A DNA stretch of 49,568 nucleotides from Tissierellia bacterium (GTDB taxonomy: Bacteria > Bacillota > Clostridia > Tissierellales > Peptoniphilaceae), in NCBI GenBank assembly GCA_030537875.1, contig JAUNVC010000010.1, positions 1 through 49,568 of the forward strand, written 5' to 3'. Shown in pieces: positions 5,838 to 49,350 of this stretch; within the stretch, counting starts at the first letter, position 1, and each line of letters starts with the position of its first letter. The translations under genes and the position numbers were made by a program. The notes under the pieces are model-generated. The model ran no database searches. It was not told the DNA's origin and was given only the letters and a program-made list of their open reading frames with translations.

Positions 5838-8800
5838 ATGAAAAAATTTGTGGCATTTCTATTGAGTATTTTGATGGTGGCTGGTCAATTTGGTTGGTTT
5901 ACCGCGAAAGCAGAATCAAATGTAGACGACATTGTAAAAGAAATATCGGTGTATATTGACGTACAATATTTAACGAAGGAAGATCCAAAACCTTTTTTTC
6001 AAAGAAGAGACTATAAAAAGGTGCTGGATATTGGGAATAGAGGACTGGACGAAGCCGTTCATAGAATTGAATCTCTGCTGGGCAAAGTGAAGATTATAGA
6101 TCGAGAAGCTTTTTTGGATCCAGTACTGGTTTTGGAGCTTTCACTTGATCAACAAGAAGCATTACAAAATGAACCTTATGTAAGGGAGATGGATGAACGA
6201 ATTCACTTCTCTGCTCTTCGTTATCACAAGAGGATGGAGCGGATGAATTTTAGTGGAAAAATCATAGGATTGGATCGTCTGCCCGAGGGGATTGATGGAA
6301 GGGGACAGGTGGTTGCCGTTTTAGACAATTATTTCAATCCGGACCATGAAGTTTTTTATTTGTCTTCTGGAGTGAAGGGGAAGTTGGATCAAGAGGCCAT
6401 TGCAACTTTTTTGGAGAATAAATCTGTATACATCGAAGATAACGAACACCCCTATGGAAGACCAGCAAAAGCGGAAGAACTATATTACAATGAAAAAATA
6501 CCCTTTGCCGCGAGCACTTTAGAGAGAACTCTTAACTTAAATACGCAAGAAGATCCTAATCCTCATGGACAACATGTTGCTGGAACAGCGGCTGGAAATG
6601 TGGCCAATGTCAGGGGAGAACGCTGGCAGGGTGTGGCACCCAACGCCCAGCTAGTCTTGGCAGGTATTTTCCGTGGGGATGCAACCAATGATACGACGGT
6701 GCAAAAAGTGGTGGGTTGGGCCATCCAACTAGGTGCTGCATCTGTCAACTTAAGTATTGGCGAGTTGAAGGAAAGCACCTCTAGATACGATAAGTGGAAA
6801 AAGAAACTAGTGGAACAAATCAACATGGCGTTTCAGTCGGGGACCAATGTTTGTGTTGCAGCAGGAAACTTTGGAGAATACCAAGGTGATCTTTCTGTGG
6901 AACATCCAGACTATGGGACCATTTCTCACCCGGGAATTATTGAGAATGCCATCACAGTGGCTTCATTGGAAAATAATAGTTATACTGCAAACTATTTTAT
7001 AGTTTCTAGTGGAAGTGAAGAACAAAAATTTATTTATCTCAATGGGAATGAGTATGAATTTACTGAAGCAGTATATGACATTGTAGATTGTGGGCTTGGT
7101 CGAGAAGATGAGATGGAAAATCTTGATTTAGGTGGAAAGGTAGCTTTATTTAAACGGGGAGATTTATCGTTTAAAGAGAAGTTTGATAGAGCCCAAGAAA
7201 AAGGCGCCATCGGTATTCTTCTATATAACAATGCACCTGGAGAGCTTGTGATTGCGCCTGTGGATGGAATTACCATTCCCGTCGGCTGCATGCTGCAAGA
7301 AGATGGAGAGAGATTAAAAAAGCAGATGCCTATCCAAGGACAATTCAAGGCAGAGCCTGAAGTATTTCTCAACCCATTGTGGGGGCAAATGAGTCCATTT
7401 TCTGACTGGGGTCTGACTGCAGATGGGGTTATGAAACCAGATATTACAGCTCCAGGTGGACATATTTATTCTGCCGCCAATGGAAGAGATATGTATGGAG
7501 ATATGTCGGGAACGTCCATGGCAACGCCTCATGTTTCAGGAGCGGTGGCCGTGGTTCGGCAAGTAATCGATGATCCCACTGGAATCTTCAGAGATGTTTT
7601 ATTGGAAGAAAAAGCAGCACTTGTGAAAGCTCTTCTGATGAATGCTGCCATTCCTCACTTGGACCCCGCTGACAAGACCTTTACTTCTCCCAGAAAACAA
7701 GGTGCTGGTATACTGGATGTGGCTAAAGCAGCAGATTTAGATTATACGATTGTCCACAATAAGACAGGTCGCCCATCTGCATTTATTGGTGACATAGAAG
7801 AAGAAATAAATTTCACTGTTCGAATCACCAACTATGCAGACCATACGCAAAGATTACAACCATCCTTCAATGCAAATATTGAGAAGAAGGAAGGTGATTT
7901 TCTCACGCGAAAGACACAACCCCTCTTTTCCAAGAATTTGGATGTCATCGAGGTTGGGCCAAAAGAATCGGTTGAGTATGAAGTGAGAATTCCTTTAGAA
8001 AATCATGAGATATTGGAAGAGTATAGAAACGGAGCTTTTGTAGAAGGGTATTTGAGCTTTATAAATCAAGATGGAAAACAAGCCTCCTTCCCCTATGTGG
8101 CTTTTAAAGGGGAGTTTGGAGAACTACCCATTATGGAAAAACCCATTTATGAATTTGATTTTTCCAAGGAAAGACCCATGTATTGGACGCTGGGTGCTTA
8201 TAACAATGCTTGGCATAATTTTAGTACCCATATTGAGACGGAAGTTGACGGGGTCAAGAAAGTTCTCGGAATGATAAATTTTGATGAGATTGATGAAGCC
8301 AGGAAAAATGGAATAGATCCCGTTGAGCTTATTCCAAGATTTGCCCCAAAACTTGTTATTAGTCCCAACAGCGATGGAAAAGCCGATAGTGCTCAATTTT
8401 TCGGAGTCTACACTAGAAGTTCCAACACTCGCTTTTATTTGGAACTTCCAGATGGTACAAGGCAAGAGCAAATTGCCTATAAGGGTTTTCGATTTAAGAA
8501 CATCTCTCACAATCCGGATATGAATCCAAATGTAGGTATTAGCAAGCCATACGAAGTGTTGGGATACTATGATTATGGATACACACCATTTTTGAATCGT
8601 CCTGAAGGTCTATACAAGTTTATCATTGAGGGAACAGCTGTAAGTGCTGGATCAAAAGAAAAAACAGTGGAAATTCCATTCTATCTTGATCTTACACCTC
8701 CGACTTTGGAAGTCTTGGGATATTTGGAGCCTGGGAAAGTACTGGTAAAAGCAGAGGATAATGTACTTTTAAGAGATGCGTATGTGGTTAAAGATGGAGA

Positions 8801-10151
8801 AGAGGCAAAACTAAGTCCATGGAACGATAACGTTTACATCTACGAAGAAGGAAAGGATGGACTAGAGGAAGTCATATTTAAAGCAGAAGATGAAGGATAT
8901 CTAACGACAGAACAAAACGCTTTGGAAGCTATGGAAGATGCGAACAAGGGTGTATTGGTTGTGAAATCAACAGGACTTGATATAGAAGAAGTGCACTATC
9001 ATATTGAAGATGACCAGAATCAAATCATCACGCCAGAAGGTGGTTGTTTACCATATGGAACCTATCGATTCGTTATTGATGACCTTCCAGCAGATTTCGA
9101 AACACCAAAGATGACCTTTGACTTTGAACTGAATCGCCAACATGCTGGAAAAGAAATTATATTACAAATTTATAAAAAAGGACAGGGAATGTTGCATGTT
9201 CAAATGGGAGAACCCACGGAAGTTCCTTTTGAATTACAAGTGGGCGATCTTCGATGGACGGAGAATGATTTTTCTAATGGAGAGTTGAAGACATACCTTC
9301 CTTTTGGAATGTACACCATTCTAGTTCATGTGGGAAGTGGATATGAAGGAATCTCGGTTCCACAAAAAATTGGATTGAGCGAAGAACATAGAGATGAAAA
9401 TGTGTTCATCTATATAAAAAAGAAAACCCCTGTTCTACCTGAAACGCCTACGCAACCTGTAAAGCCGAAAGACCCCTATATTCCTTATTTGCCAAAACCA
9501 ACGGCGAAAGAAGAGAGTAACAAGGAAGGAACCAATCAAAATAGTATCCAGAATGAGGAGATAGAGAAACAACCTAAGTTCCAAATCTCAGAACCGGTAG
9601 GGAATGTTTCTTTTGAAGATATTAGCGATGATAAGAATAAAGAAGCTATTCTAGAGTTGGCCAATAGAGGAATTTTAAAAGGAACAGGAGAAAAGAAGTT
9701 TGAACCTAACACCTATATTAGCAGGGCCATGGTGGTAGAGATTTTGAGAAGAATCTCTAGGGATAAGGATATTCTCTTTTTACAATCTCCCTTTAAGGAT
9801 GTCCAAGAGGGAGAGTGGTATTATGATGCAGTGTATTGGGCTTCTTCCAGAGCGTTCGTTCTTGGGGATGGAGAAGGTTGGTTCAAACCCAATGATCTCG
9901 TATCTCGCCAAGAATTCGCTGTGATTTTGCAACGCTATGTAAGGTTCCAAAACATTGCATTGAATAAAACCCAGGAATTTTCATATAAGGATGAAAATAC
10001 AATTGCGGAGTGGGGGCTGGATGCTGTAAAAGAAATGGATCAATGGGGGCTGGTCAGGGGTGAAAAAGATGACCTCTACGGTCCAGAGTCAAAGATAACT
10101 CGTTCAGAGTTGGCGGCAATCATTTACCGACTGATTCATTCGGAACTATAA
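5838..10151 (+). CDS. Cell-surface subtilisin-family (S8) protease with three SLH motifs (protease 1)
   Basis: A 1437-residue secreted protein. Residues 1-25 form a signal peptide ending TAKA. A 100-residue prodomain-like region follows. The S8 catalytic domain has Asp163 (VVAVLDNYF), His243 (NPHGQHVAG) and Ser560 (MSGTSMATPHVSG), plus the oxyanion Asn segment VAAGNFG. A protease-associated (PA) domain with GKVALFKRGDLSFKEK is inserted between His and Ser, as in lactocepin and C5a peptidase. An Fn3-like region and further beta-rich modules follow, then a Pro/Lys/Glu linker. Three SLH motifs (about residues 1259-1303, 1317-1365, 1378-1437) should bind the secondary cell-wall polymer. The Asp site reads Asp-Asn-Tyr where subtilases usually have Asp-Thr/Ser-Gly. 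Start: AAGGAGG lies six bases before the ATG. An ArsR-like regulator follows. Confidence 0.93.
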   Translation: MKKFVAFLLSILMVAGQFGWFTAKAESNVDDIVKEISVYIDVQYLTKEDPKPFFQRRDYKKVLDIGNRGLDEAVHRIESLLGKVKIIDREAFLDPVLVLELSLDQQEALQNEPYVREMDERIHFSALRYHKRMERMNFSGKIIGLDRLPEGIDGRGQVVAVLDNYFNPDHEVFYLSSGVKGKLDQEAIATFLENKSVYIEDNEHPYGRPAKAEELYYNEKIPFAASTLERTLNLNTQEDPNPHGQHVAGTAAGNVANVRGERWQGVAPNAQLVLAGIFRGDATNDTTVQKVVGWAIQLGAASVNLSIGELKESTSRYDKWKKKLVEQINMAFQSGTNVCVAAGNFGEYQGDLSVEHPDYGTISHPGIIENAITVASLENNSYTANYFIVSSGSEEQKFIYLNGNEYEFTEAVYDIVDCGLGREDEMENLDLGGKVALFKRGDLSFKEKFDRAQEKGAIGILLYNNAPGELVIAPVDGITIPVGCMLQEDGERLKKQMPIQGQFKAEPEVFLNPLWGQMSPFSDWGLTADGVMKPDITAPGGHIYSAANGRDMYGDMSGTSMATPHVSGAVAVVRQVIDDPTGIFRDVLLEEKAALVKALLMNAAIPHLDPADKTFTSPRKQGAGILDVAKAADLDYTIVHNKTGRPSAFIGDIEEEINFTVRITNYADHTQRLQPSFNANIEKKEGDFLTRKTQPLFSKNLDVIEVGPKESVEYEVRIPLENHEILEEYRNGAFVEGYLSFINQDGKQASFPYVAFKGEFGELPIMEKPIYEFDFSKERPMYWTLGAYNNAWHNFSTHIETEVDGVKKVLGMINFDEIDEARKNGIDPVELIPRFAPKLVISPNSDGKADSAQFFGVYTRSSNTRFYLELPDGTRQEQIAYKGFRFKNISHNPDMNPNVGISKPYEVLGYYDYGYTPFLNRPEGLYKFIIEGTAVSAGSKEKTVEIPFYLDLTPPTLEVLGYLEPGKVLVKAEDNVLLRDAYVVKDGEEAKLSPWNDNVYIYEEGKDGLEEVIFKAEDEGYLTTEQNALEAMEDANKGVLVVKSTGLDIEEVHYHIEDDQNQIITPEGGCLPYGTYRFVIDDLPADFETPKMTFDFELNRQHAGKEIILQIYKKGQGMLHVQMGEPTEVPFELQVGDLRWTENDFSNGELKTYLPFGMYTILVHVGSGYEGISVPQKIGLSEEHRDENVFIYIKKKTPVLPETPTQPVKPKDPYIPYLPKPTAKEESNKEGTNQNSIQNEEIEKQPKFQISEPVGNVSFEDISDDKNKEAILELANRGILKGTGEKKFEPNTYISRAMVVEILRRISRDKDILFLQSPFKDVQEGEWYYDAVYWASSRAFVLGDGEGWFKPNDLVSRQEFAVILQRYVRFQNIALNKTQEFSYKDENTIAEWGLDAVKEMDQWGLVRGEKDDLYGPESKITRSELAAIIYRLIHSEL

Positions 10152-10186
10152 GAGTTAAAGTATGTAGAATTTCAAGGAAGGATTCA

Positions 10187-10215
10187 TTGACACCGGTGGA
10201 GTCCTGTGGCATACT
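10187..10215 (+). promoter_or_regulatory. Promoter of regulator 1
   Basis: TTGACA (10187-10192), 17 bases, CATACT (10210-10215), 18 bases before the ATG at 10234. The paralogous regulator at 18743 has the same combination, including the unusual CATACT. Confidence 0.75.
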
Positions 10216-10233
10216 TGAAAGAGGAGGCGAAAT

Positions 10234-11322
10234 ATGAAACATAGAGCTAAACCCAATCTTCTTATGGAAGCTATTGCATATTTGGGAAACCGTGCCAATG
10301 TGTACAAGATTGCAGACATGGAATCTAGGCTGAAAGATAGAAATGTTTCTGATTTAACAGAATTCCACGAACAATTCAAAGTGCTAAAGGGCCTCATTCA
10401 TGCCATGGATCGAGATATTCGCTTGCCACAGAAGACATTGGAGCGCTATTTCAAGGATCTTCCGGGGTTTCCGTTTAACAGCATTGGAGGATACTCTCTA
10501 GGGTTTCTCTTATTGTATCCAGTGGAAGAACCCTTTTATGAGAATTTGGAAAAGTTCTTAGAGTACAAAGCTAATTTGAGCCAAGAAGAGGTTTGTAAAA
10601 ACCTCCTCTTGGCTTTAGATTTCAAAGATGAAATACAAGAGGGGATGAAAGAGTATCAAACGGTATTTTTGTCAAAGGTGCTGTCGATGGAAATAGCTTC
10701 TGACACAAAATTACAAATACTAGATTTGCAAGCGAGGTATAAAGACCATTTGATGGAAGTAAGCAATGTATTGCGTCCGGTACTAGGATTTTTGATGGAA
10801 CATAGGGCCAAACTTGAATCTATGGCTGAGACGTTTCTTTCGAGATTGGATGACGAGGAGAATGTGGAATATGTACAGGAAATCATGGGTTTATCAGATG
10901 GAGATAAGGATCATATCAAAATAATCCCCTTTGTCTTAGGTGCAGATACCAATCTCTTGGTAGATCACGTAAATTCAAAAATCAATGCATATGTATATGC
11001 TGGAGTTCTCAGAGATTTACTAAAAAAGCTTATGTACTCTCGAATTTTGACGACGGACAATGTTTATGATTGTGTAAAACTCCTTGGAGATCGAACGAGG
11101 TTTGACATTCTATTGTTTTTGAAGCAAAAAGATGCCTACTCATCAGATTTGGTGGAGGAATTAAAACTGGCTAGGACAACGATTCATCATCACATGACCA
11201 AACTCATAGATGCAGATTTAGTTGCGCCGATTGTAGATGGAAACAAAGTTATGTACCGCTTAAATAGAGAGAAAATGTCGGAACTTCTGAATAAGCAGAG
11301 AGAGTTTCTTTTAGGAGATTAG
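10234..11322 (+). CDS. ArsR-type winged-helix transcription regulator with long N-terminal domain (regulator 1)
   Basis: A 362-residue soluble protein without signal peptide or membrane segment. The C-terminal ~90 residues are an ArsR-type winged helix: VKLLGDRTRFDILLFL (helices 1-2), AYSSDLVEELKLARTTIHHHMTKLIDADLV (recognition region) and a GNKVMYRLN wing. The N-terminal ~260 residues are a domain I do not recognise, including the conserved segments YLGNRANVYK and FPGFPFNSIGGYS. The C-terminal domain shows no metal-site Cys cluster, so metal sensing is not supported. It is clearly paralogous to the gene at 18743 over its whole length. AGGAGG precedes the ATG. It sits downstream of protease 1 with its own promoter and a terminator after it, so control of the adjacent protease is a reasonable inference. 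Confidence 0.82.
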   Translation: MKHRAKPNLLMEAIAYLGNRANVYKIADMESRLKDRNVSDLTEFHEQFKVLKGLIHAMDRDIRLPQKTLERYFKDLPGFPFNSIGGYSLGFLLLYPVEEPFYENLEKFLEYKANLSQEEVCKNLLLALDFKDEIQEGMKEYQTVFLSKVLSMEIASDTKLQILDLQARYKDHLMEVSNVLRPVLGFLMEHRAKLESMAETFLSRLDDEENVEYVQEIMGLSDGDKDHIKIIPFVLGADTNLLVDHVNSKINAYVYAGVLRDLLKKLMYSRILTTDNVYDCVKLLGDRTRFDILLFLKQKDAYSSDLVEELKLARTTIHHHMTKLIDADLVAPIVDGNKVMYRLNREKMSELLNKQREFLLGD

Positions 11323-11442: not shown

Positions 11443-11558
11443 TACTTTAGATCCCTAGACTCTTAAAACTAGAGAAGGAGCAGGGTTAGATAGAATGAAT
11501 CAATAGAGAAGCATCGTTGAGTCGCTCTATCGATGAGTATAGAACAAGGAGGATGTGT

Positions 11559-14500
11559 ATGAAAAAGAGAATTGGTTTGTTGCTGGTAGTCTGTTTAATC
11601 TTAGGGATATATCCAGTACAATTATCAAAAGCAAAAAATGTGAGGCCAACAGATGCCTTGCAACGCTTCATAGAAAAAACAGACAACCGGTTTGAAGAGG
11701 AGGAACGAATTCCCATTATTGTAGAGTTGGAGGATAGTGAAGATTTATCCTCTTATACAACCTTGGAGCAATTCCGTCGGGATATGAAAGCTTCTATGGA
11801 TCGCAGAAATAGGGCACAGATGGATATGATGTCCACCATGGCCAATAGAAACATTCATATGGACAAGCAAGAGTCACTCACCATTCTCTTCAACGGAATT
11901 GGGGGTGAGGTGACCTATGCAGACGCAAAGTCCATTGCTGAAATTCCTGGTGTTAAAAATATATATATTGCCCAAAGGTTCGATCGTCCTGAGGTTACTC
12001 TCATGGACTCGAGTTCGGATATAATGCATACAACTTCCGCCTGGAACGTTGGGTTCGAGGGTGAGGGAATGGTGGTTGCCGTCATTGATAGTGGATTTGA
12101 TGTTACACATCCGGATTTCAGTGAAGTGGATTCTGCTACCATTAAGTTGACCAAAGCCAAGGTGGAAGAACTGATAAAAACCTATCATATGCAAGGTGCA
12201 TATTACACAGATAAGTTTCCCTTTGGATACAACTATGTTTCTAATAACGGTCGTATTAAAGAGAATAATCCCGAGTCCCATGGACAACACGTAGCCGGTA
12301 CAGTTGCAGCCAATGGTAAAATCAAAGGTGTTGCTCCGAAGGCACAACTTTTAGCCATGCGCGTGTTTGGGGAGAAGACAGGAACCAATGAAATTTATTA
12401 TTTGCGTGCAATGGAAGATGCTTTAAAACTAGGTGCCGATGCCATCAACATGAGTTTGGGTAAGGCTCTCGGAAGCAAAACCGATGAGGTTCCTGCCGTG
12501 GTTCAGATGGTGGAGAGACTTAGGAAATTGGGTATAATCGTGAATGTTGCTGCTGGAAATGATGGAACTTTTGGATTTCCTGTCACAAAGCCATTGGCTG
12601 TCAACCCCGACTATGGAATGGTCGCATCTCCTGGAACATTAGATGGAGTGCTGACCGTTGCTTCAGTGGAAAATATTTACAAAAGAAACGATGCCTTGTT
12701 GACTCCCAAAGGAAAGATAGGGGTATGGTTCCATTTTGATAAATCGGACTATGTGGGGCTTAGCTATGATATAGTACCCTGTGGTCTTGGAAAGCCAGAG
12801 GAAATTCCTGATTCTGTACAGGGGAAAGCTGCTCTCATTGAACGAGGAGAGTTAAGTTTCGTAGATAAGATTCATAATGCGGAAGCGAAGGGAGCATCCA
12901 TTGTACTCATTTACAATAAAGAGGGGGAAGGGGATGATCTCTTTGGAATGAATATCGAGGGAACAAATATACCTTCCATTGCTCTTAAGAGAAAGGATGG
13001 ATTGGCTCTAAACTCTGGAGATCAGATTATAATTCTAGAAGAAGAGATAAAAGAGGTTTCCAAGTATGAAGGGACCATGAGTAAATTTTCATCCTTTGGA
13101 CCCTCACCAGATTTATTGATGAAACCAGAAATAACGGCACCTGGTGGTAATATTTATTCCACCCAAAATGATGGGAAATATGCAACCATGAGTGGAACTT
13201 CCATGGCGACCCCCCATGTTGCTGGTGCCGCTGTGCTTATGAAGGAAAGATTAAAGAAAGACTTCCAAATTCCTGATGATGAGATAGTGGCTCTGACGAA
13301 GGCTATCTTTATGTCTTCTGCTAAACCTCATGTGGACCAAGAAACGGGAGCCTATTCTTCTCCTAGGAAACAGGGTGCAGGAATCTTAGATTTGTATCGT
13401 GCGATGCATACCAACGTAGTTATTATGGGAAATGTGCGAGATGAGAGTAAAATCTTTTTAGGTGAAGTGGGAAATCATATTGCATTTCCTTTGAAATTAA
13501 AAAACTTTGGAAAGGAAGAGTTTACGTATAAAGCTCGATTGGAACTTGTTACAGATAAGGTGGAGCATGGAAAATATACCTTACAACCGAAAAAGTTGAT
13601 GTCCAAGGAACTGGGTGAAATCACGGTTCCAGCAAATGGTATAGTTTCTATGGAAGTATCCTTTGATTTGACGCAAGAAATTTTAGAGCAGACGAAAGAT
13701 CAACCCTATGGATTTTTTGCAGAAGGTTTTGTTGTTCTTGAAGATGTGAAAGATAGGGCTCCTGAAATTTCTGTTCCTTTTGTTGGATTCCACGGGAATT
13801 GGAAAGACCTTCCGATCTTAGAAGATCTTATCTATGATGAAGGCGCTATTGCACCGGTCTATTGGCCCAATACTCCCACAGAAAACCATGATTATAGTCA
13901 TTTTTATGCGATGGTGGATGATGTGATTACGGGAAAAGCCAATAGACAGACCTTGGGTGTATATGCGGATTTCTATGATGATTATCGCCGTGTGGACAAA
14001 GATCGAATTGCTTTTTCACCCAATGGCGATAGGAATGCGGATGAGCTTCATTTTGCTGGTGTGTTCCTACGAAATTTTGATGATTTTGTTTTCCGCGTGA
14101 AGGATATGGATGATCAGGTTCTCTATGAGTCCAGCGGGACAGCAGGATGGAAAAACTTTTTCGGAGAAAGATATCCAAAGGCCACATTTGATGAGGGTTG
14201 GAGCTGGAACGGAACGGGAGCAAAGGAAGACGGCGCATATAAAGTTGAGTTGGAAGGCAGATTTGAAGTTGCAGGTAGCCCGTTACAGAAAAAATCATAT
14301 GTCATTCATGTGGATAGAAAGGCTCCGCAACTTTCGGGTGCAATATTTGATGATACCACGGGTATAGTGACTATTGAAGCGAGTGACGAATTGGGCATTC
14401 GAAGAATCATGATTTTGGATGAAACGGATCCACAACATAAAGTGTTGGTGGCTGAGAGTGCTGAACAAAATATACCACTACCCAAGAATATAGACAAAAG

Positions 14501-17500
14501 TCACTTGCGCGTAGTAGTGGAAGACTGGGCATTTAACCGTAGTTCAGATCGCCTAGAAGATCTTTTGAGCTCGGAAGAGAGAAATATTCTAGCCATTGAG
14601 TCAAAAGTGGAGTCAAATACACAACCTTCTAAAATTGAATATGTTGTAAAGAATGTGGATACGGGAGAAGTGGTAGAAAATTTAACTCGAATAAAACCAG
14701 GAACCTACGAAGTAAGTGCCACTGTTTCGGATGGGTATATCATTACTCCAGATAGACAAAGGGTAGTCTTTTCAGGTACGGGAGAGACAAAAACGATAAC
14801 CTTTGTCATTGGTCAAGATCCCAATGCTCTCGTCAATGTAACCATTGGAGGAATCCCTCCGGCGCATTATAATAAACCTCTGACTGTCTTGTTGATCTCA
14901 CAAAAAGATGGTAAAGAGTACTTGGCGACAGAGGATGAAATGCTAGCAGGATTTTATAAAGTACAGGTTCCCATGGGTTCTTATCAGGTTCTGGTGAAGA
15001 ATGTACAGCCAGGATGGGATGTGTTGCCCTATCCAGAAGTGGTTCGGGCAGAGAGTTTAGAAGAGATTTCCGTCATCCTAAATTATTTAAGACAAAATGA
15101 AATTGGATCCATTCAAGTCATTAGCAAAGCTGTCGACAGTTCTGTTGAGCCATTACCAGAGATTGCGTACATCATTAAAGGAGAAAATGAAAACTGGGCG
15201 GAGGTAAATGGTACACACTTACAAATGGGTAGATTTACCGTGGCACCAAGAGAGGTACCGCAAGGATATTTTGTCATTCCCGATGTACAAGAAATTATTT
15301 TGACACCAGAGGATCCCAATCAGAGGGTAGAATTTACAGTCTACAAAAAAACAAGTGCTAAAGGGAAAATTAAAATTTTGACTGAGTTCCAAGGCGCGGA
15401 TACGTTCCCGATGGGAGAGGTTACCTACGCAGTAGAAGACTACTATGGCAATGTTTACAGAGACCTAGAATCGTTAGATTTTGGTGTATATTACATCCAT
15501 CCTATGCAATATCCCAAGGGCTTTGATTTGGTGGACAAGAGAGTAAAAATAGTTATTACTCCAGATCAACCTGAGGCCACAGGAACTGCCCTATGGTATC
15601 GTCTGAACACAAGTGGAAAGAGAGGACTCATCTCCTTGTGGATTGATTTCCCATCGGAGTATCCGAAAGCCATTACATTAGAAATTGAGGATTCCACAGG
15701 ACAAATTTTGAAAAAAGTGGAAAATAGTGACTTTAGTGGTTCCTTCCGAATGGATCTTCCTTGGGACAGTTACACGATTCGTCCCGTAGAAGTGGATGCT
15801 GGATATCATGTAAAGCCTAAGGAATTGGAATTCCGCCTCAATGAGGAATATATGGACCTTGGATCCATTCGTTATATCAAAGGTCAAGAGGGCGATGGAG
15901 AAGGAAAAGTGACAGCAGTTCTCTATGCGGGAGACTATACTGGACAGCTCCCGAGTGCAACTCTCTTTGGCCCCAATGGATATGAAAAGTCTATGACGCT
16001 TACACCATATCCTCTAGAGCAGGGGGCGTATGTAGGAGAATGTGATGCTCTTCATTATGGAGATTACACCCTTCAATGGGGTCCGTTGGAAGGAAATTTT
16101 ATCTTGGTTCCTCAAGAATACAAGTTGGATGTACAAAATTATAAAAAAGAACAGACCATCACGAGCTTTATCCAACCCACCTTCCAATTGCAAGTTCTTT
16201 CACTAGGTCTTCCACTGGGAGAACTGGTTGAGTATGTAGCCGAGTGGGAATATACGGATGGAAGCAAGAGAATCTCATCCTATGAGGACATGAGCCGACT
16301 CCCACAAAATACTAGCTTGAAAATTCGGCCGAAGAAAGTTCCAGATGGATATCGTGTGGAGCCACAAATTTTTTCCATAAAAGTGACGGACGGTACAGTT
16401 TTGAGGGATACTTCCTTTACTTATATTAAGGAAGGAGGCATCCCCACGGGAACAGCAAAAATTGTAGCGACGACAGGATCAAGTGATAAGGCCAATGTAG
16501 AAATCACTGCGACAAAAGATGGAGAAACCTATTATTTCCAATTGGAAGAAGGCAAGTTTGTTTTAAATAATTTACCTGCTGGAGAGTATGAGGTGTATCC
16601 AAAATATAAAACGGGAATCAAAGTTGGATATCCAAATAAAATCGTGATCCAACTTGCCGATGGAGAAGAGAAAGATTTAGGTTGGTTGACATTTAAACCA
16701 AGTAAAAAACAGGTAATTCAACTTAATAAGGAACCTGGTATGCCAGAAGTAGAGATTGTGGGGGTAGTAAGGCATTATGCGTTTGGAGAGCTAGTCTATA
16801 CTTCAGAGAATCTTCCGGAAGACGTGGAGATTGTACTCAAGGCGAAAGAACTTCCTGCAGGATATAAACTTGTCCCCGCTGAAAAGAAAATCATCCCCTA
16901 TGACGAAGATACGGATGAAGAATGGGATTATTCCAAACCTGTGGTGTTTACGCTGGTAAAAGATACGGGAACGACGGCCGTAGATCATGAATATATTGTA
17001 CGGGCATACGGTACTTTGGATTCCACTGCCTTTACTGCAGAAAGCTGGATGGATTTTGCCAGAGCAGTAGAGATGCAGAATAAAATAGAACTGCAAGAAA
17101 CTTTCTTGAACTTAACCTCGAGAGGAAACGGAAAGATTACAGAGATTCTTGTGGATGAGGATTATAATGGATATCCCAGATATACACTAGGAGAAAAAGC
17201 ACAACTACCAGGAGATTCCTATTCATTAATTTTTATCAATCCTACAACGGGAGAAAAGTTCCCTACGGAGGAAAAACTCTATCTTAATGAGAGTGCAAGA
17301 AACATCTATGCACCGGCGGGATGTACCCATGCAGATGTGGAAATCCTCCTACGCAGAGGACCAAGTCATGGCTATGACAGCAAGGACATTATAAAAAATG
17401 TACCTTTGAGAAAGGTATCATCATTGGAAGACGGAGATAAAACCGCTTTGAAAGAAGCAATTCAACGGGGAGAAGAAAGTAAGAAAGAAGATAAATATAT

Positions 17501-18629
17501 CAATGCATCTCCTGCCATGAAAGCGGCTCTTGATCAAGCCATTGAAGATGGAAAAGCTGTGGTAGATAGGGTACCGGCCACGGCAGAAGAAATTGAAAAG
17601 GCAACAAAAGCCATAGCAAAAGCCATCGAAGCCTTAGATGGAGCAACCTATACTGCACTGGAAAAACTAGTTGAACAAGATCCCAGTCTCAAGGAAAGCT
17701 ACAAATATAAAGAAGCGGATAAAGACAAGAAAGAAGCTTATGACGCGCTAATTGCAGAAGCAAAAGAGGTATTGACTCTCAAGAATAAGACACAGGCAGA
17801 GGTGGATATGTTGGTCCAATCCATCAACTTGGCCATTGCCGACTTGAACGGAACACAGCCAGTAGATCCCGTACCACCCGTAGAACCGGATCAACCGAAG
17901 CCACCCTTTGTACCAGATTGGACACAACCCTATGATCCAACTCCCCACTATCCTAATACACCGTCCACCCCTACATCGAAACCTACAACTGCAGATACAA
18001 CAGATACACCCACACCAGCTGAACCCAAACCAGACTATGGAATGGATATTCGAGTGGTTGGACCGAGTGTGACATTTGATGATATAGAAGGTATTCAGAA
18101 CGCAGATGAAATTTTGGAATTGGCAAGTCGAGGAATCCTAAAGGGTGTGGAAGATGGCAAAAGTTTTGCACCAATGCAACCTATAACCAGAGCCATGGTT
18201 GTTGAAACGTTACGAAGACTTTCAAAAGATAGGGATGAAATAAATACAAGCCTTTTCTTCCCGGACGTTATTGATGGTCAATGGTATTATACAGCGGTAA
18301 ATTGGGCAGCTGGAAAGGGAATCATTGTTGGAAATGATCAGGGACTCTTCCATCCAAATCAATTCGTGACACGTCAGGAGTTTGCTCTTATCATGAAACG
18401 CTTCCTCACACTTCGTAAAATTCCCATGGACAAAGTAAAAGCCTTTGCATATGAAGATCAAGCTGATATACCTGACTGGAGTCTCAATGCAGTAGAAGAG
18501 ATGGATGGATATGGGCTTGTAGTTGGGCAAACGAAGGAGAACTATCGTCCTTCTTCTACCTATACTAGAGCGGAATTGGCTCACACCTTATATCTGCTCG
18601 TAGATAAAGTGCTAGAACGAATGAAGTAA
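11559..18629 (+). CDS. Giant cell-surface subtilisin-family (S8) protease with FIVAR-like and SLH repeats (protease 2)
   Basis: A 2356-residue secreted protein. The frame is open from 11517, but ATG 11559 is chosen because AAGGAGG lies six bases upstream and a signal peptide (MKKRIGLLLVVCLILGI, ending LSKAK) starts there. The S8 domain has Asp177 (VAVIDSGFD), His241 (ESHGQHVAG) and Ser548 (MSGTSMATPHVAG), all canonical, with a PA-type insertion (GKAALIERGELSF). An Fn3-like region follows, then about 900 residues of repeated beta-sandwich-like units with recurring phrases such as YxVxPxxVPxGY. Next are two FIVAR-like three-helix repeats (about 1953-2098), a Pro/Thr-rich wall-spanning linker and three SLH motifs (about 2173-2350). 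Likely an S-layer-associated protease or adhesin. Its regulator-type gene follows at 18743. Confidence 0.93.
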   Translation: MKKRIGLLLVVCLILGIYPVQLSKAKNVRPTDALQRFIEKTDNRFEEEERIPIIVELEDSEDLSSYTTLEQFRRDMKASMDRRNRAQMDMMSTMANRNIHMDKQESLTILFNGIGGEVTYADAKSIAEIPGVKNIYIAQRFDRPEVTLMDSSSDIMHTTSAWNVGFEGEGMVVAVIDSGFDVTHPDFSEVDSATIKLTKAKVEELIKTYHMQGAYYTDKFPFGYNYVSNNGRIKENNPESHGQHVAGTVAANGKIKGVAPKAQLLAMRVFGEKTGTNEIYYLRAMEDALKLGADAINMSLGKALGSKTDEVPAVVQMVERLRKLGIIVNVAAGNDGTFGFPVTKPLAVNPDYGMVASPGTLDGVLTVASVENIYKRNDALLTPKGKIGVWFHFDKSDYVGLSYDIVPCGLGKPEEIPDSVQGKAALIERGELSFVDKIHNAEAKGASIVLIYNKEGEGDDLFGMNIEGTNIPSIALKRKDGLALNSGDQIIILEEEIKEVSKYEGTMSKFSSFGPSPDLLMKPEITAPGGNIYSTQNDGKYATMSGTSMATPHVAGAAVLMKERLKKDFQIPDDEIVALTKAIFMSSAKPHVDQETGAYSSPRKQGAGILDLYRAMHTNVVIMGNVRDESKIFLGEVGNHIAFPLKLKNFGKEEFTYKARLELVTDKVEHGKYTLQPKKLMSKELGEITVPANGIVSMEVSFDLTQEILEQTKDQPYGFFAEGFVVLEDVKDRAPEISVPFVGFHGNWKDLPILEDLIYDEGAIAPVYWPNTPTENHDYSHFYAMVDDVITGKANRQTLGVYADFYDDYRRVDKDRIAFSPNGDRNADELHFAGVFLRNFDDFVFRVKDMDDQVLYESSGTAGWKNFFGERYPKATFDEGWSWNGTGAKEDGAYKVELEGRFEVAGSPLQKKSYVIHVDRKAPQLSGAIFDDTTGIVTIEASDELGIRRIMILDETDPQHKVLVAESAEQNIPLPKNIDKSHLRVVVEDWAFNRSSDRLEDLLSSEERNILAIESKVESNTQPSKIEYVVKNVDTGEVVENLTRIKPGTYEVSATVSDGYIITPDRQRVVFSGTGETKTITFVIGQDPNALVNVTIGGIPPAHYNKPLTVLLISQKDGKEYLATEDEMLAGFYKVQVPMGSYQVLVKNVQPGWDVLPYPEVVRAESLEEISVILNYLRQNEIGSIQVISKAVDSSVEPLPEIAYIIKGENENWAEVNGTHLQMGRFTVAPREVPQGYFVIPDVQEIILTPEDPNQRVEFTVYKKTSAKGKIKILTEFQGADTFPMGEVTYAVEDYYGNVYRDLESLDFGVYYIHPMQYPKGFDLVDKRVKIVITPDQPEATGTALWYRLNTSGKRGLISLWIDFPSEYPKAITLEIEDSTGQILKKVENSDFSGSFRMDLPWDSYTIRPVEVDAGYHVKPKELEFRLNEEYMDLGSIRYIKGQEGDGEGKVTAVLYAGDYTGQLPSATLFGPNGYEKSMTLTPYPLEQGAYVGECDALHYGDYTLQWGPLEGNFILVPQEYKLDVQNYKKEQTITSFIQPTFQLQVLSLGLPLGELVEYVAEWEYTDGSKRISSYEDMSRLPQNTSLKIRPKKVPDGYRVEPQIFSIKVTDGTVLRDTSFTYIKEGGIPTGTAKIVATTGSSDKANVEITATKDGETYYFQLEEGKFVLNNLPAGEYEVYPKYKTGIKVGYPNKIVIQLADGEEKDLGWLTFKPSKKQVIQLNKEPGMPEVEIVGVVRHYAFGELVYTSENLPEDVEIVLKAKELPAGYKLVPAEKKIIPYDEDTDEEWDYSKPVVFTLVKDTGTTAVDHEYIVRAYGTLDSTAFTAESWMDFARAVEMQNKIELQETFLNLTSRGNGKITEILVDEDYNGYPRYTLGEKAQLPGDSYSLIFINPTTGEKFPTEEKLYLNESARNIYAPAGCTHADVEILLRRGPSHGYDSKDIIKNVPLRKVSSLEDGDKTALKEAIQRGEESKKEDKYINASPAMKAALDQAIEDGKAVVDRVPATAEEIEKATKAIAKAIEALDGATYTALEKLVEQDPSLKESYKYKEADKDKKEAYDALIAEAKEVLTLKNKTQAEVDMLVQSINLAIADLNGTQPVDPVPPVEPDQPKPPFVPDWTQPYDPTPHYPNTPSTPTSKPTTADTTDTPTPAEPKPDYGMDIRVVGPSVTFDDIEGIQNADEILELASRGILKGVEDGKSFAPMQPITRAMVVETLRRLSKDRDEINTSLFFPDVIDGQWYYTAVNWAAGKGIIVGNDQGLFHPNQFVTRQEFALIMKRFLTLRKIPMDKVKAFAYEDQADIPDWSLNAVEEMDGYGLVVGQTKENYRPSSTYTRAELAHTLYLLVDKVLERMK

Positions 18630-18635
18630 ATAGGG

Positions 18636-18665
18636 AGAGGAAAGGGCCGTGAGGCTCTTTCCTCT
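18636..18665 (+). terminator. Strong hairpin after protease 2 (no T-run)
   Basis: A 13-bp stem with one G-T pair (AGAGGAAAGGGCC, GTGA loop, GGCTCTTTCCTCT). The usual T-run is absent, so it may stabilise the 3' end or be a weak terminator. Confidence 0.6.
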
Positions 18666-18693
18666 GCTTATAGGATAGAAGAAGATGATAGAA

Positions 18694-18722
18694 TTGACAG
18701 TGCGTAATCAATATGTCATACT
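18694..18722 (+). promoter_or_regulatory. Promoter of regulator 2
   Basis: TTGACA (18694-18699), 17 bases, CATACT (18717-18722), 20 bases before the ATG. It has the same -35, spacing and -10 as the promoter of regulator 1. Confidence 0.75.
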
Positions 18723-18742
18723 ACAATTAAGGGGGAAGTGAC

Positions 18743-19828
18743 ATGGAATATACTCGAGAGATAAATCTATTGCTTGAGGCCGCAGTTTATCTTGGAAATC
18801 GGGCCAATACCTACAAAACCATCAATATGGAGGAAAGGCTCAAGGCTAGAAATATATCAGATTTGGAGGAGTTTCAGGAACAGTATCAACCCTTAAAAAA
18901 GTTAATTCAAACCATGGATCGTGAAATCAAGATCCCCAAAAAATCTATGGAAAAAATTTTCAAGGAGTTTCCTGGCTTCCCGTTCAATAGCATTGGGGGA
19001 TACTCGCCGGGATTTATATTACTCTATCCTGGAGAAGAACCCTTTGATAAGGATTTGGATGAATTTCTTCACAAAAAAAGAACAATGAACAGAGAGGAGA
19101 TTTACAGAAATCTTCTTATGGCCATAGACTTTAAGGATGAAGTGAAAGAAACGGATGGAGGGTTTGCGGATCTGTTTTTGAAGAAAGTCACAGAGATGGA
19201 CTTGCAGCCTGAGGTAAAATTGGGAATTCTCCAACTTCAACCTAGGTATGAAGAATATTTAGAGGAAATGGGTAAGTTACTCCGTCCTGTACTCAATTTT
19301 CTCCAAGACCATATCGACGAACTAAATACCATTGCAGAACCATTTTTTCAGCGTTTAACCAATCCAGAAAGCGAAGCCTATGTCAAAGAAACGGCAGGAC
19401 TCACCGATGATGGAAAGAGTGAAGTGGAAATTATTCCGTTGGTCTTGGGACCGGACACCAATGTCCTTGTAGAACCTATGGGTCAAGATAAGGGATATGT
19501 ATATGCTGGCGTACTGAGAGATCTTCTGAAGAAACTCATGTATTCCAAAATTATGACAGCAGATAATGCTTTTGACAGAGTGAAACTACTGGGAGACCGA
19601 ACAAGATTTGATATTTTACTCTTGTTGCGAGAAAATGATGCCTATGCCTCAGAATTGGCTGATCAAATGCAGCTCGCCAGAAATACGATTCATCATCATA
19701 TGACCAGACTCATTGATGCCGACTTAGTTACTCCGATTCTTGATGGAAATAAAGTCATCTATAGCTTAAACAAGGATCGAATGGGAGATTTATTAGATAA
19801 ATTGCATACCTTTTTAATTGGGAAATAG
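18743..19828 (+). CDS. ArsR-type winged-helix transcription regulator, paralogue of regulator 1 (regulator 2)
   Basis: A 361-residue soluble protein aligning end to end with the product of 10234-11322; by eye more than half the residues agree, with blocks such as FPGFPFNSIGGYS, VYAGVLRDLLKKLMYS and VKLLGDRTRFDILL. The C-terminus is an ArsR-type winged helix (recognition region LARNTIHHHMTRLIDADLV). The N-terminal ~260 residues form the same unrecognised domain. It follows SLH protease 2 just as regulator 1 follows protease 1 and ends at the right copy of the repeated terminator. AAGGGGG lies upstream of the ATG. A ligand- or stress-responsive repressor of the protease genes is plausible but not shown. 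Confidence 0.82.
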   Translation: MEYTREINLLLEAAVYLGNRANTYKTINMEERLKARNISDLEEFQEQYQPLKKLIQTMDREIKIPKKSMEKIFKEFPGFPFNSIGGYSPGFILLYPGEEPFDKDLDEFLHKKRTMNREEIYRNLLMAIDFKDEVKETDGGFADLFLKKVTEMDLQPEVKLGILQLQPRYEEYLEEMGKLLRPVLNFLQDHIDELNTIAEPFFQRLTNPESEAYVKETAGLTDDGKSEVEIIPLVLGPDTNVLVEPMGQDKGYVYAGVLRDLLKKLMYSKIMTADNAFDRVKLLGDRTRFDILLLLRENDAYASELADQMQLARNTIHHHMTRLIDADLVTPILDGNKVIYSLNKDRMGDLLDKLHTFLIGK

Positions 19829-47642: not shown

Positions 47643-49016
47643 ATGCATGAACTTATGTGGATTGGTATTGTCCTTTTATTTGTAGCTTTGCTATTTGCAA
47701 TTCGCTACATGAAAAAACTCAATTTGAGTTTTAATGTTCGAGTGGTCTCAGCTCTTGCGGCTGGTATCATCTTTGGTGGACTGGTTCAATGGATTGTAAA
47801 AGATACGGATATTATTGCCAAAGCAATGAACTGGATTACATTGGTAGGGGCTGGCTATGTAAGGCTCCTACGGATGATTGTGTATCCACTCATCTTTGTA
47901 TCTATTACCAAAGCCATTGCGACCCAAGAGGATAACGTAGGAAAAACGGCAGCTAGAATTATGGTGGTTTTGATGATTACCGTATCTATTGCTGCTCTAG
48001 TTGGAGCACTTACCACATCAGTCTTTGGATTGACAGCGGAAGGACTTCAATCTGGAAGTGGAGAAGCGGCAAGAGGACAAATGCTTGCCGATAGGTTACA
48101 AGAATTTGAAACCCAGCCAATCCAGCAACAAATTTTACAAATCATTCCCACCAATCCCTTCATGGCTTTGACAGGGCAAGGACCTAACGCCACATTGGCT
48201 ACGGTGTTTTTTGCTGCCATGTTAGGTTTGGCAACTCTCTTCTTGAAAAGAAGTAAACCAGAGAGCGCCGACGTCTTTATTACCAATTTAAACTCCTTCT
48301 CGGATGTCATTATGCGACTCGTTCGTATGGTCTTAAGACTCACCCCTTACGGTGTATTGGCACTGATGACCAACATCACTGCTACCAGTAATTTTGCTGA
48401 GATTGCAAGACTGGTTGGATTTATCTTTGCAAGCTATATTGCAATTTTGATTATGTTTGTGGTCCATGGTATCTACTTGAGTATCTATGGGCTCAATCCT
48501 TTTACTTTCTTCAAAAAAAGTGCTTCCAACCTCATGTTTGCATTTACATCCAGATCCAGTGCTGGAAGCTTACCTCTTACCATCAACAATCAAGTGAACA
48601 ATTTAGGGGTACCGGAAGGGACGGCAAATCTCGCTGGAAGTCTTGGAACGAGTATTGGTCAAAATGGTTGTGCTGGAATTTATCCTGCCATGTTGGCGGT
48701 GATGATTGCTCCGACCATGGGAATCAATCCCTTGAGCATCGCTTTCTTAGTGAAGTTAATCATCATTACAGCACTGGGAAGCTTTGGAATCGTGGGTGTA
48801 GGTGGAGGAGCCACCTTTGCGGCCATCATCGTATTGTCGGGTATGGGTTTACCCGTTGAACTCGCAGGATTACTTGTGGCCATTGAGCCATTGATTGACA
48901 TGGGAAGAACGGCACTGAACGTAAGTGACTCTCTCTTGGCCGGAGTTATTTCAGCCAAACAAGGGGGAAATCTCAACACGGAAATTTACAATCGTTCGGA
49001 GATTATAACAGAATAA
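47643..49016 (+). CDS. Cation:amino-acid symporter, TcyP-like (probable L-cystine uptake)
   Basis: A 457-residue DAACS-family transporter. Compared with the 405-residue member at 22888, it has an extra N-terminal helix and an insertion after the third helix (ADRLQEFETQPIQQQILQIIP), as in Bacillus TcyP. The SRSSAGSLPLTINNQV reentrant loop and GTSIGQNGCAGIYPAM helix (where glutamate carriers have NMDGT) also match cystine carriers such as TcyP. It should import L-cystine; tartrate or other substrates cannot be excluded. GAGGAGG precedes the ATG. The selenoprotein-like gene begins nine bases after its stop. Confidence 0.85.
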   Translation: MHELMWIGIVLLFVALLFAIRYMKKLNLSFNVRVVSALAAGIIFGGLVQWIVKDTDIIAKAMNWITLVGAGYVRLLRMIVYPLIFVSITKAIATQEDNVGKTAARIMVVLMITVSIAALVGALTTSVFGLTAEGLQSGSGEAARGQMLADRLQEFETQPIQQQILQIIPTNPFMALTGQGPNATLATVFFAAMLGLATLFLKRSKPESADVFITNLNSFSDVIMRLVRMVLRLTPYGVLALMTNITATSNFAEIARLVGFIFASYIAILIMFVVHGIYLSIYGLNPFTFFKKSASNLMFAFTSRSSAGSLPLTINNQVNNLGVPEGTANLAGSLGTSIGQNGCAGIYPAMLAVMIAPTMGINPLSIAFLVKLIIITALGSFGIVGVGGGATFAAIIVLSGMGLPVELAGLLVAIEPLIDMGRTALNVSDSLLAGVISAKQGGNLNTEIYNRSEIITE

Positions 49017-49025
49017 GGAGGAAAT

Positions 49026-49313
49026 ATGAAAATTATCATAGAACCAAAAGCGATGGAATACATCAAAAATAAAAAGATCAATGCCATTACGGTGGACATC
49101 GAAGGATGTTCTTCCTGAGGTGTGGGGGAACCCCAACCAACGGTTTCGTTGGCAGCACCGAAAATGAACCAAGATGACTTTGACAAATACAATGTGGACG
49201 GTATCGACGTATATGTTGTATGCACAGCACAGGCAAAAAATGATACCCTGTCGATTGACTTCAAAAAAGTTCTCTTTGGAGGAAAACTCGTCGTAGAAGG
49301 ATTGGTATTTTAA
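49026..49313 (+). CDS. Probable selenoprotein with in-frame TGA (Cys-x-x-Sec motif)
   Basis: ATG 49026 lies four bases after AAGGAGG and nine after the symporter stop. The frame runs to TAA at 49311-49313 with one TGA at 49116-49118, codon 31. Read through as selenocysteine, it gives a 95-residue protein starting MKIIIEPKAMEYIKNKK, with GCSSUGVGEPQPTVSLAAP around the site: Cys28-Ser-Ser-Sec31, a CxxU redox-type motif. A stem of eight base pairs begins right after the TGA. The sequence resembles small HesB-like or CC/Se-motif (seleno)proteins of Firmicutes, from memory and not checked. Substrate or partner unknown; thiol redox or metal binding is likely. Standard gene finders would call only 49122-49313 from a GTG. 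A nonsense mutation is the alternative, but the reading frame, spacing and hairpins argue against it. Confidence 0.85.
49119..49152 (+). promoter_or_regulatory. Candidate SECIS element after the in-frame TGA
   Basis: Two hairpins follow the TGA. The first is GGT-(G bulge)-TGGGG, loop GAA, CCCCA-ACC (49119-49138; eight pairs). The second is CCAACG-GTTT-CGTTGG (49137-49152; six pairs), its loop about 25 bases from the TGA and starting with GU as in known bacterial SECIS loops. They share two C residues, so they may exclude each other. Which one SelB would bind cannot be decided here. Confidence 0.65.
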
Positions 49314-49316
49314 ATG

Positions 49317-49350
49317 AAAAGGTTTTGCAGATTTCTGCAAGACCTTTTTT
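49317..49350 (+). terminator. Intrinsic terminator after the selenoprotein-like gene
   Basis: AAAAGGT-T-TTGCAG, loop ATTT, CTGCAA-G-ACCTTTT with T-run: 13 pairs and one mismatch. It is the first terminator seen after 42287. Confidence 0.92.

Follow-up and report, generated by a model that had tools for sequence, protein, structure and literature searches.

The window analysed here, a 49,568-nt stretch of DNA from a Tissierellia bacterium (contig JAUNVC010000010.1), carries on its forward strand a small gene at 49026..49313 that appears to encode a selenoprotein of the CC/Se-motif family. It starts with an ATG at 49026 and ends with a TAA at 49311-49313, and the only internal stop in its 95-codon frame is a TGA at codon 31 (49116..49118, forward strand). 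Cys28 precedes this codon by three residues, so that read-through would place selenocysteine (Sec31) in a CSSU motif of the CxxU type within a protein of 95 residues. A Shine-Dalgarno sequence, AAGGAGG (49015..49021, forward strand), overlaps the TAA of the gene upstream, while the hairpin of an intrinsic terminator (49316..49349, forward strand) lies behind the stop codon, with T-rich sequence after it; the hairpin folds with -20 kcal/mol (z -7.39) and is absent from the output of a simple terminator pattern scan. The strong ribosome binding site, the frame broken at codon 31 alone, the cysteine three residues before it and the terminator had all been pointed out in a first-pass annotation of this DNA, and each is present as described.

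The directly preceding gene (47643..49016, forward strand) encodes a TcyP-type cystine symporter of 457 residues, as predicted from its similarity to known transporters. It is 46% identical to Escherichia coli TcyP, annotated as a cystine/sulfocysteine:cation symporter, and scores 352 bits against this protein, compared with 118 against GltP, 91 against DctA and 51 against SstT; it reaches no NCBIfam cut-off. Like the TcyP/YdjN cystine symporters, it carries a QNGCAG..YPAM motif, the cysteine of which is encoded by TGT at 48669-48671. Unlike the known symporters, it is paired with a selenoprotein gene, and three of its relatives elsewhere carry a TGA in place of the QNGC cysteine codon. Only 9 nt separate its stop codon from the ATG of the selenoprotein gene. 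At some distance from these two genes, the window contains two consecutive pairs (5838-11322 and 11517-19828), each of which, judged by eye, combines a very large subtilisin-like protein with a similar regulator-like protein and which apparently represent a duplicated two-gene unit.

Read through the TGA, the small protein matches the NCBIfam model NF041239, ‘CC/Se motif family (seleno)protein’, over its entire length (model positions 1-91 of 91) with 60.2 bits at a cut-off of 40. While the first-pass annotation considered the gene to have been missed by ordinary ORF calling and its exact role to be undescribed, the family is thus already modelled, and it is also in print: a 2026 review (PMC13188914) has NF041239 among its hypothetical proteins, with a CxxU motif and a predicted occurrence in Moorella thermoacetica. 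The gene is therefore a fresh member of an already known family. As for a role, the accessible parts of that review name no function for NF041239, and ‘Moorella’ does not occur in the main texts of the two older papers it cites for the family (PMC2398784, PMC5029168). The window protein shares with the family the full-length match, the CxxU motif and the existence of both TGA-type and no-stop (Cys) forms. It differs from the family at large in belonging to a TcyP-linked set, described below, with the pattern G-C-x-x-U-G-x(1,2)-E-[P/V]-x-P and an invariant Cys28.

A second family relationship had to be considered. The window protein yields a weak, whole-length match to the Pfam family Fe-S_biosyn (PF01521; E 0.022, 15.4 bits), and it resembles the HesB-like selenoproteins (PF01521; TIGR01911) in its small size. 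The selenoprotein could accordingly bind or deliver a metal, an Fe-S cluster or selenium in the manner of HesB/IscA rather than act as a disulfide reductase, and two family members with adjacent C-U or U-C pairs in place of CxxU would fit such a function. The match, however, stays below the gathering score of 26.3, for which reason we rejected membership in HesB/IscA, and among the 15 TcyP-linked members the window protein alone matches Fe-S_biosyn at E<=1. Moreover, profile comparisons with E. coli IscA, ErpA and SufA gave hhalign probabilities below 1% (for a shallow profile of three sequences), the C-terminal CxC of these proteins is missing, and the motif given for HesB-like selenoproteins in the consulted parts of PMC13188914 is UxGP, whereas the window protein has CxxU. 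We thus regard a HesB/IscA-like function as rather unlikely. An AlphaFold model built on a two-row alignment is too poor for use (mean pLDDT 44), and matches of the family profile to the phage Q-beta coat protein in the PDB (best E 1.8e-5) were taken as chance.

The genome from which the window derives (1.19 Mb, 71.6% complete) contains machinery for selenocysteine insertion. SelA (630 bits), SelD (376) and SelB (322) each exceed their cut-offs, selA and selD adjoin selB in one cluster, and a tRNA-Sec with the anticodon TCA is present, so that all four genes by which the first-pass annotation had proposed to check its claim, selA to selD, were found. The selD gene (L015:8513-9562, reverse strand) has an in-frame TGA of its own (SGUAAK), because of which the table-11 list of open reading frames starts it late. 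Between selB and selC there is an OmpR/PhoB-type response regulator gene (L015:4544-5233, reverse strand), whose scores stay under all curated cut-offs listed.

Among relatives, the TGA is a recurrent feature. Within the genus, five of six genomes contain the gene, each copy with a single in-frame TGA, which speaks against a sequencing error, and all six have selB; the remaining genome (G001) yielded neither a TcyP nor a CC/Se gene at the thresholds used. Across the taxonomic family, 64 of 130 genomes hold 87 copies, of which 29, in 20 genomes, are of the TGA type. The distribution of selB follows that of the TGA: of the 48 family genomes with selB, 20 have a TGA-type copy (all such genomes), 10 have no-stop copies only (out of 44) and 18 lack the gene, an association with a Fisher p-value of 1.5e-9, computed over genomes that are related and not independent. 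In an alignment of the copies for which loci had been fetched (32 out of 87; 19 of the TGA type, 13 without a stop), column 31 is Cys or Sec in every copy, and the homologues thus do not all end at codon 30. Sec and Cys are adjacent in L033 (U-C) and L025 (C-U) instead of forming CxxU; the register in the CC motif can shift by one, and Sec may sit at either of its positions. Further arrangements were noted in passing. In the genus g34, each of six genomes (G099-G104; L026-L029, L031, L034) has two tandem TGA-type CC/Se genes, and the only second copy that was read, that of L027, reads WSNUN and lacks the first Cys. In L051 (G086), another CC/Se copy is located near what by eye look like genes of a lysine pathway and a purine-type permease, and the lengths of the open reading frames around the copies in L052 (G072) and L053 (G085) are partly similar.

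Read-through of UGA would be guided by a SECIS element, for which two hairpins come into question. The first-pass annotation described one with eight pairs that starts at the base after the UGA, and noted that bacterial SECIS elements lie directly 3' of the UGA. This hairpin exists, by eye, but with a one-base bulge only; the minimum-energy fold replaces it by a pairing of GGUGU with GCACC that encloses two hairpins, and it has no consensus pairs among relatives, although single-sequence folds place a small hairpin at the same site in L018, L025 and L035. We therefore rejected it as the SECIS. The second hairpin, also pointed out at the outset with its loop about 25 bases from the TGA, is the more likely candidate: it comprises six base pairs (49137-49142 with 49147-49152, forward strand) and an apical loop GUUU, with 24 nt between the UGA and the loop. 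The bSECIS model, as given in the consulted parts of PMC13188914, calls for a loop of 3-9 nt with a G in its first two positions, a stem of 4-16 bp, a distance of 16-37 nt from the UGA and a minimum free energy of at most -7.5 kcal/mol. With a loop of four (G first, then U), a stem of six, the 24-nt distance and -18.8 kcal/mol for the 55-nt stretch, the second hairpin lies within all of these bounds. Across the whole window, no Rfam family reaches its gathering score, and sub-threshold Rfam matches around the gene were taken as chance.

Several comparisons set this hairpin apart from chance. In 20,000 synonymous-codon shuffles, only 31 matched the stability of its 16-mer, and 299 that of the whole 45-nt region, so that the hairpin goes beyond what codon choice explains; of 7,357 in-frame positions in ten long open reading frames of the window, 7 have a 16-mer as stable as this one at the corresponding distance. 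In an alignment of 18 TGA-type rows (the 19 mentioned above minus L033, where the TGA sits differently in the motif), 79.6% of the pair cells are kept, compared with 61.2% in shuffles, and 20 cells have changed on both sides, compared with 5.9, a value that none of 500 shuffles reached. A second alignment of 24 rows (23 distinct) combined 14 of these 18 (without L027, L028, L029 and L031, which are near copies of L026) with 10 linked genes; here, 89.6% of the cells of the 5-bp core are kept, compared with 72.2%, and 21 cells have changed on both sides, compared with 7.9. Second copies of tandem pairs were part of none of the alignments. Because related sequences can outperform shuffles without any structure, two further observations matter: shifted versions of the hairpin each keep at most 52.8% of the pair cells in the 18 rows, and the apical G is found in every row of both alignments (18 of 18 and 24 of 24). 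Other measures are less distinctive. The count of pairs that have changed on both sides does not exceed that of shuffles, of which 149 and 211 out of 500 are at least as high; two of the six pairs fail to form in 6 and 8 of the 18 rows; and among the 14 of these rows that were folded, the hairpin is plain in six minimum-energy folds, the single-sequence folds being mostly unremarkable. Overall, the sequence comparisons make the hairpin at 49137..49152 the likely SECIS.

The simplest objection to all this is that UGA-31 is a true stop, be it in a decayed gene or in one for a 30-residue peptide. Translation table 11 does read a stop here, and relative to dinucleotide shuffles the fold is ordinary (z -1.20 and -1.46). 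Such a stop would, however, hardly be kept in frame in 5 of 5 copies in the genus and 29 of 87 in the family, all of them in genomes with selB, nor would one expect the frame beyond it to be conserved and the hairpin to covary; we consider this explanation highly improbable. Instead, translation very likely continues past codon 31, as the first-pass annotation had inferred: SelB and tRNA-Sec would decode the UGA with the help of the hairpin at 49137-49152, and the product would be a 95-residue NF041239 selenoprotein, a reading to which family match, machinery, homologues and SECIS all point.

What sets this copy apart is its neighbour. In a search of 249 genomes of the order Tissierellales, a close TcyP (E<=1e-80) was found in 34 genomes, NF041239 in at least 123 and both in at least 26. 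Among the matches listed, a CC/Se gene lies immediately downstream of TcyP and on the same strand in 15 genomes (G000, G002, G003, G004, G051, G069, G072, G103, G199, G207, G209, G210, G211, G239 and G240), that is, in 15 of the 34 with a close TcyP and 15 of the 26 with both. All 15 linked copies are of the TGA type and match NF041239 at E<=0.001, and selB is present in all 15 genomes. In an alignment of just these genes, chosen for their linkage, the proteins have G-C-x-x-U-G in common, and neither Cys28 nor Sec31 varies. The two TAA codons in the transporter match of G103 sit at its C-terminal end, so that this gene is not a broken one. The two genes are present but not adjacent in ten genomes (G005, G147, G157, G158, G174, G212, G213, G222, G235 and G238), for instance about 52 kb apart in G005, which belongs to the window's genus; in G183, a contig edge makes adjacency unreadable. 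Eight genomes, among the matches listed, have TcyP without NF041239, although such absences are soft, given that the order-level search missed the NF041239 genes of G007, G105 and G114, which the family-level search had found. The 9-nt gap, the Shine-Dalgarno sequence overlapping the upstream stop and the recurrence of the pair suggest that the selenoprotein gene and the TcyP gene probably share a transcript and are coupled in translation.

Not all CC/Se genes show this pairing. In the taxonomic family, 21 of the 29 TGA-type copies have no close TcyP next to them. A class-level search of 391 genomes with the alignment of the 15 linked genes matched 31 genomes, 22 of them outside the order, and none of 27 loci (L110-L136, one per genome; 21 outside the order, 6 within) contained the TcyP motif, as judged by an exact pattern within flanks of up to 1.5 kb rather than by inspection of single loci. 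Regarding earlier descriptions, a limited literature search, which did not extend to Haft and Gwadz (2023) and Haft and Tolstoy (2025), did not find the TcyP–CC/Se gene pair; term searches of the available texts of PMC5029168 and PMC12013277 found nothing, nor do the consulted parts of PMC13188914 link NF041239 to a transporter. As the two papers by Haft and colleagues are the likeliest places for it, we hold the newness of the pair with reserve.

While the selenoprotein gene, its SECIS, the machinery and the recurring link to TcyP are supported by sequence comparison, the function of the product is a matter of inference, including the label ‘redox protein’ that it had been given at first. Sec31 and Cys28 may form a redox pair with cystine or a related disulfide as its substrate, and it is quite possible, if short of probable, that the selenoprotein serves to reduce imported cystine or a related disulfide. 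TcyP would bring in cystine, or else a disulfide or selenium compound related to it; the selenolate of Sec31 would attack the imported compound, Cys28 would resolve the intermediate, and the Cys28-Sec31 bond would be reduced again by a system of the thioredoxin or glutaredoxin type. A comparable layout is found in YhaO-YhaM of E. coli, where, according to the consulted parts of PMC7373191, one operon combines an importer gene with a gene whose product works on the sulfur amino acid taken up; this is an analogy only, drawn from descriptions and not from sequence, and YhaM, a cysteine desulfidase, has another role. Because TcyP/YdjN has been implicated in selenocystine uptake (PMC10213525, citing earlier work), the recovery of selenium may be an alternative use. 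And because most TGA-type copies in the taxonomic family lack a close TcyP as a neighbour, the basic chemistry of the family need not concern cystine at all. The same distribution bears on a further possibility, namely that the selenoprotein protects or regulates the transporter, by reducing a disulfide in TcyP or by sensing the supply of cystine or selenium, instead of acting on the imported substrate. The recurring pair and the Cys, or TGA, at the QNGC motif of TcyP would agree with it, but other CC/Se genes do without a neighbouring TcyP, and we consider such a role unlikely compared with the reduction of an imported disulfide.

Among the 34 close TcyP genes, two with an inner TGA turned up unsought, in G072 (L058:3076-4428) and G198 (L097:1660-2510), both at the codon of the QNGC cysteine; in G072, the frame is broken only by this TGA, in QNGCAG. 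When 84,980 species were scanned with an exact pattern for a TGA at this codon, these two came up again together with a third, from an Oscillospiraceae MAG (WQUF01000259; L106:4116-5513), with an otherwise complete frame of 465 residues; 14 pattern matches in viral contigs led to no confirmed case. By a rough estimate, about 0.03 chance matches would be expected in random DNA, although decayed or misread TcyP genes would be the fairer null. All three genomes have selB, and in all three genes a Watson-Crick stem of six pairs with a UGC or UGU loop follows 19 nt after the UGA. Of 29 Cys forms, E. coli tcyP among those compared, one has a Watson-Crick stem at the same site (p 0.0008), and when G-U pairs are allowed, 4 of 29 have such a stem, among them the Cys form of the window (p 0.007); these comparisons concern three genes, all from MAGs, and a coding sequence (AMLA) that itself favours a hairpin. 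The underlying transporter alignment left out L074 (G051), in which the exact motif pattern is absent, and four close-TcyP genomes lacking a locus, except that G198 was included from L097. Because of a second frame break upstream, the G198 gene may be decayed or misassembled. Only in G072 does a selenoprotein gene adjoin the TGA-bearing TcyP. In BLASTP alignments, the QNGC cysteine falls on the Ser/Thr of a motif in GltP and DctA, DG[S/T], which in transporters of this kind lies at the site for substrate and sodium. A selenoprotein TcyP was not found in the literature seen, including the accessible transporter parts of PMC13188914. We regard the three genes as candidates for selenocysteine-containing transporters.

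By itself, the gene is one more member of a catalogued selenoprotein family, and its value is in its neighbourhood: what deserves to be followed up is the pairing with TcyP, together with the candidate Sec-TcyP genes. We tentatively propose that TcyP and the CxxU selenoprotein of Tissierellales might constitute a selenium-dependent module for the import and reduction of cystine or selenocystine, and that in a few lineages the importer itself might be a selenoprotein, with Sec in place of the QNGC cysteine. The recurring pair gives the NF041239 family a role in the import and reduction of cystine that can be tested, and Sec at the QNGC position, if true, would put reactive selenium where a symporter of the sodium/dicarboxylate type likely holds its substrate.
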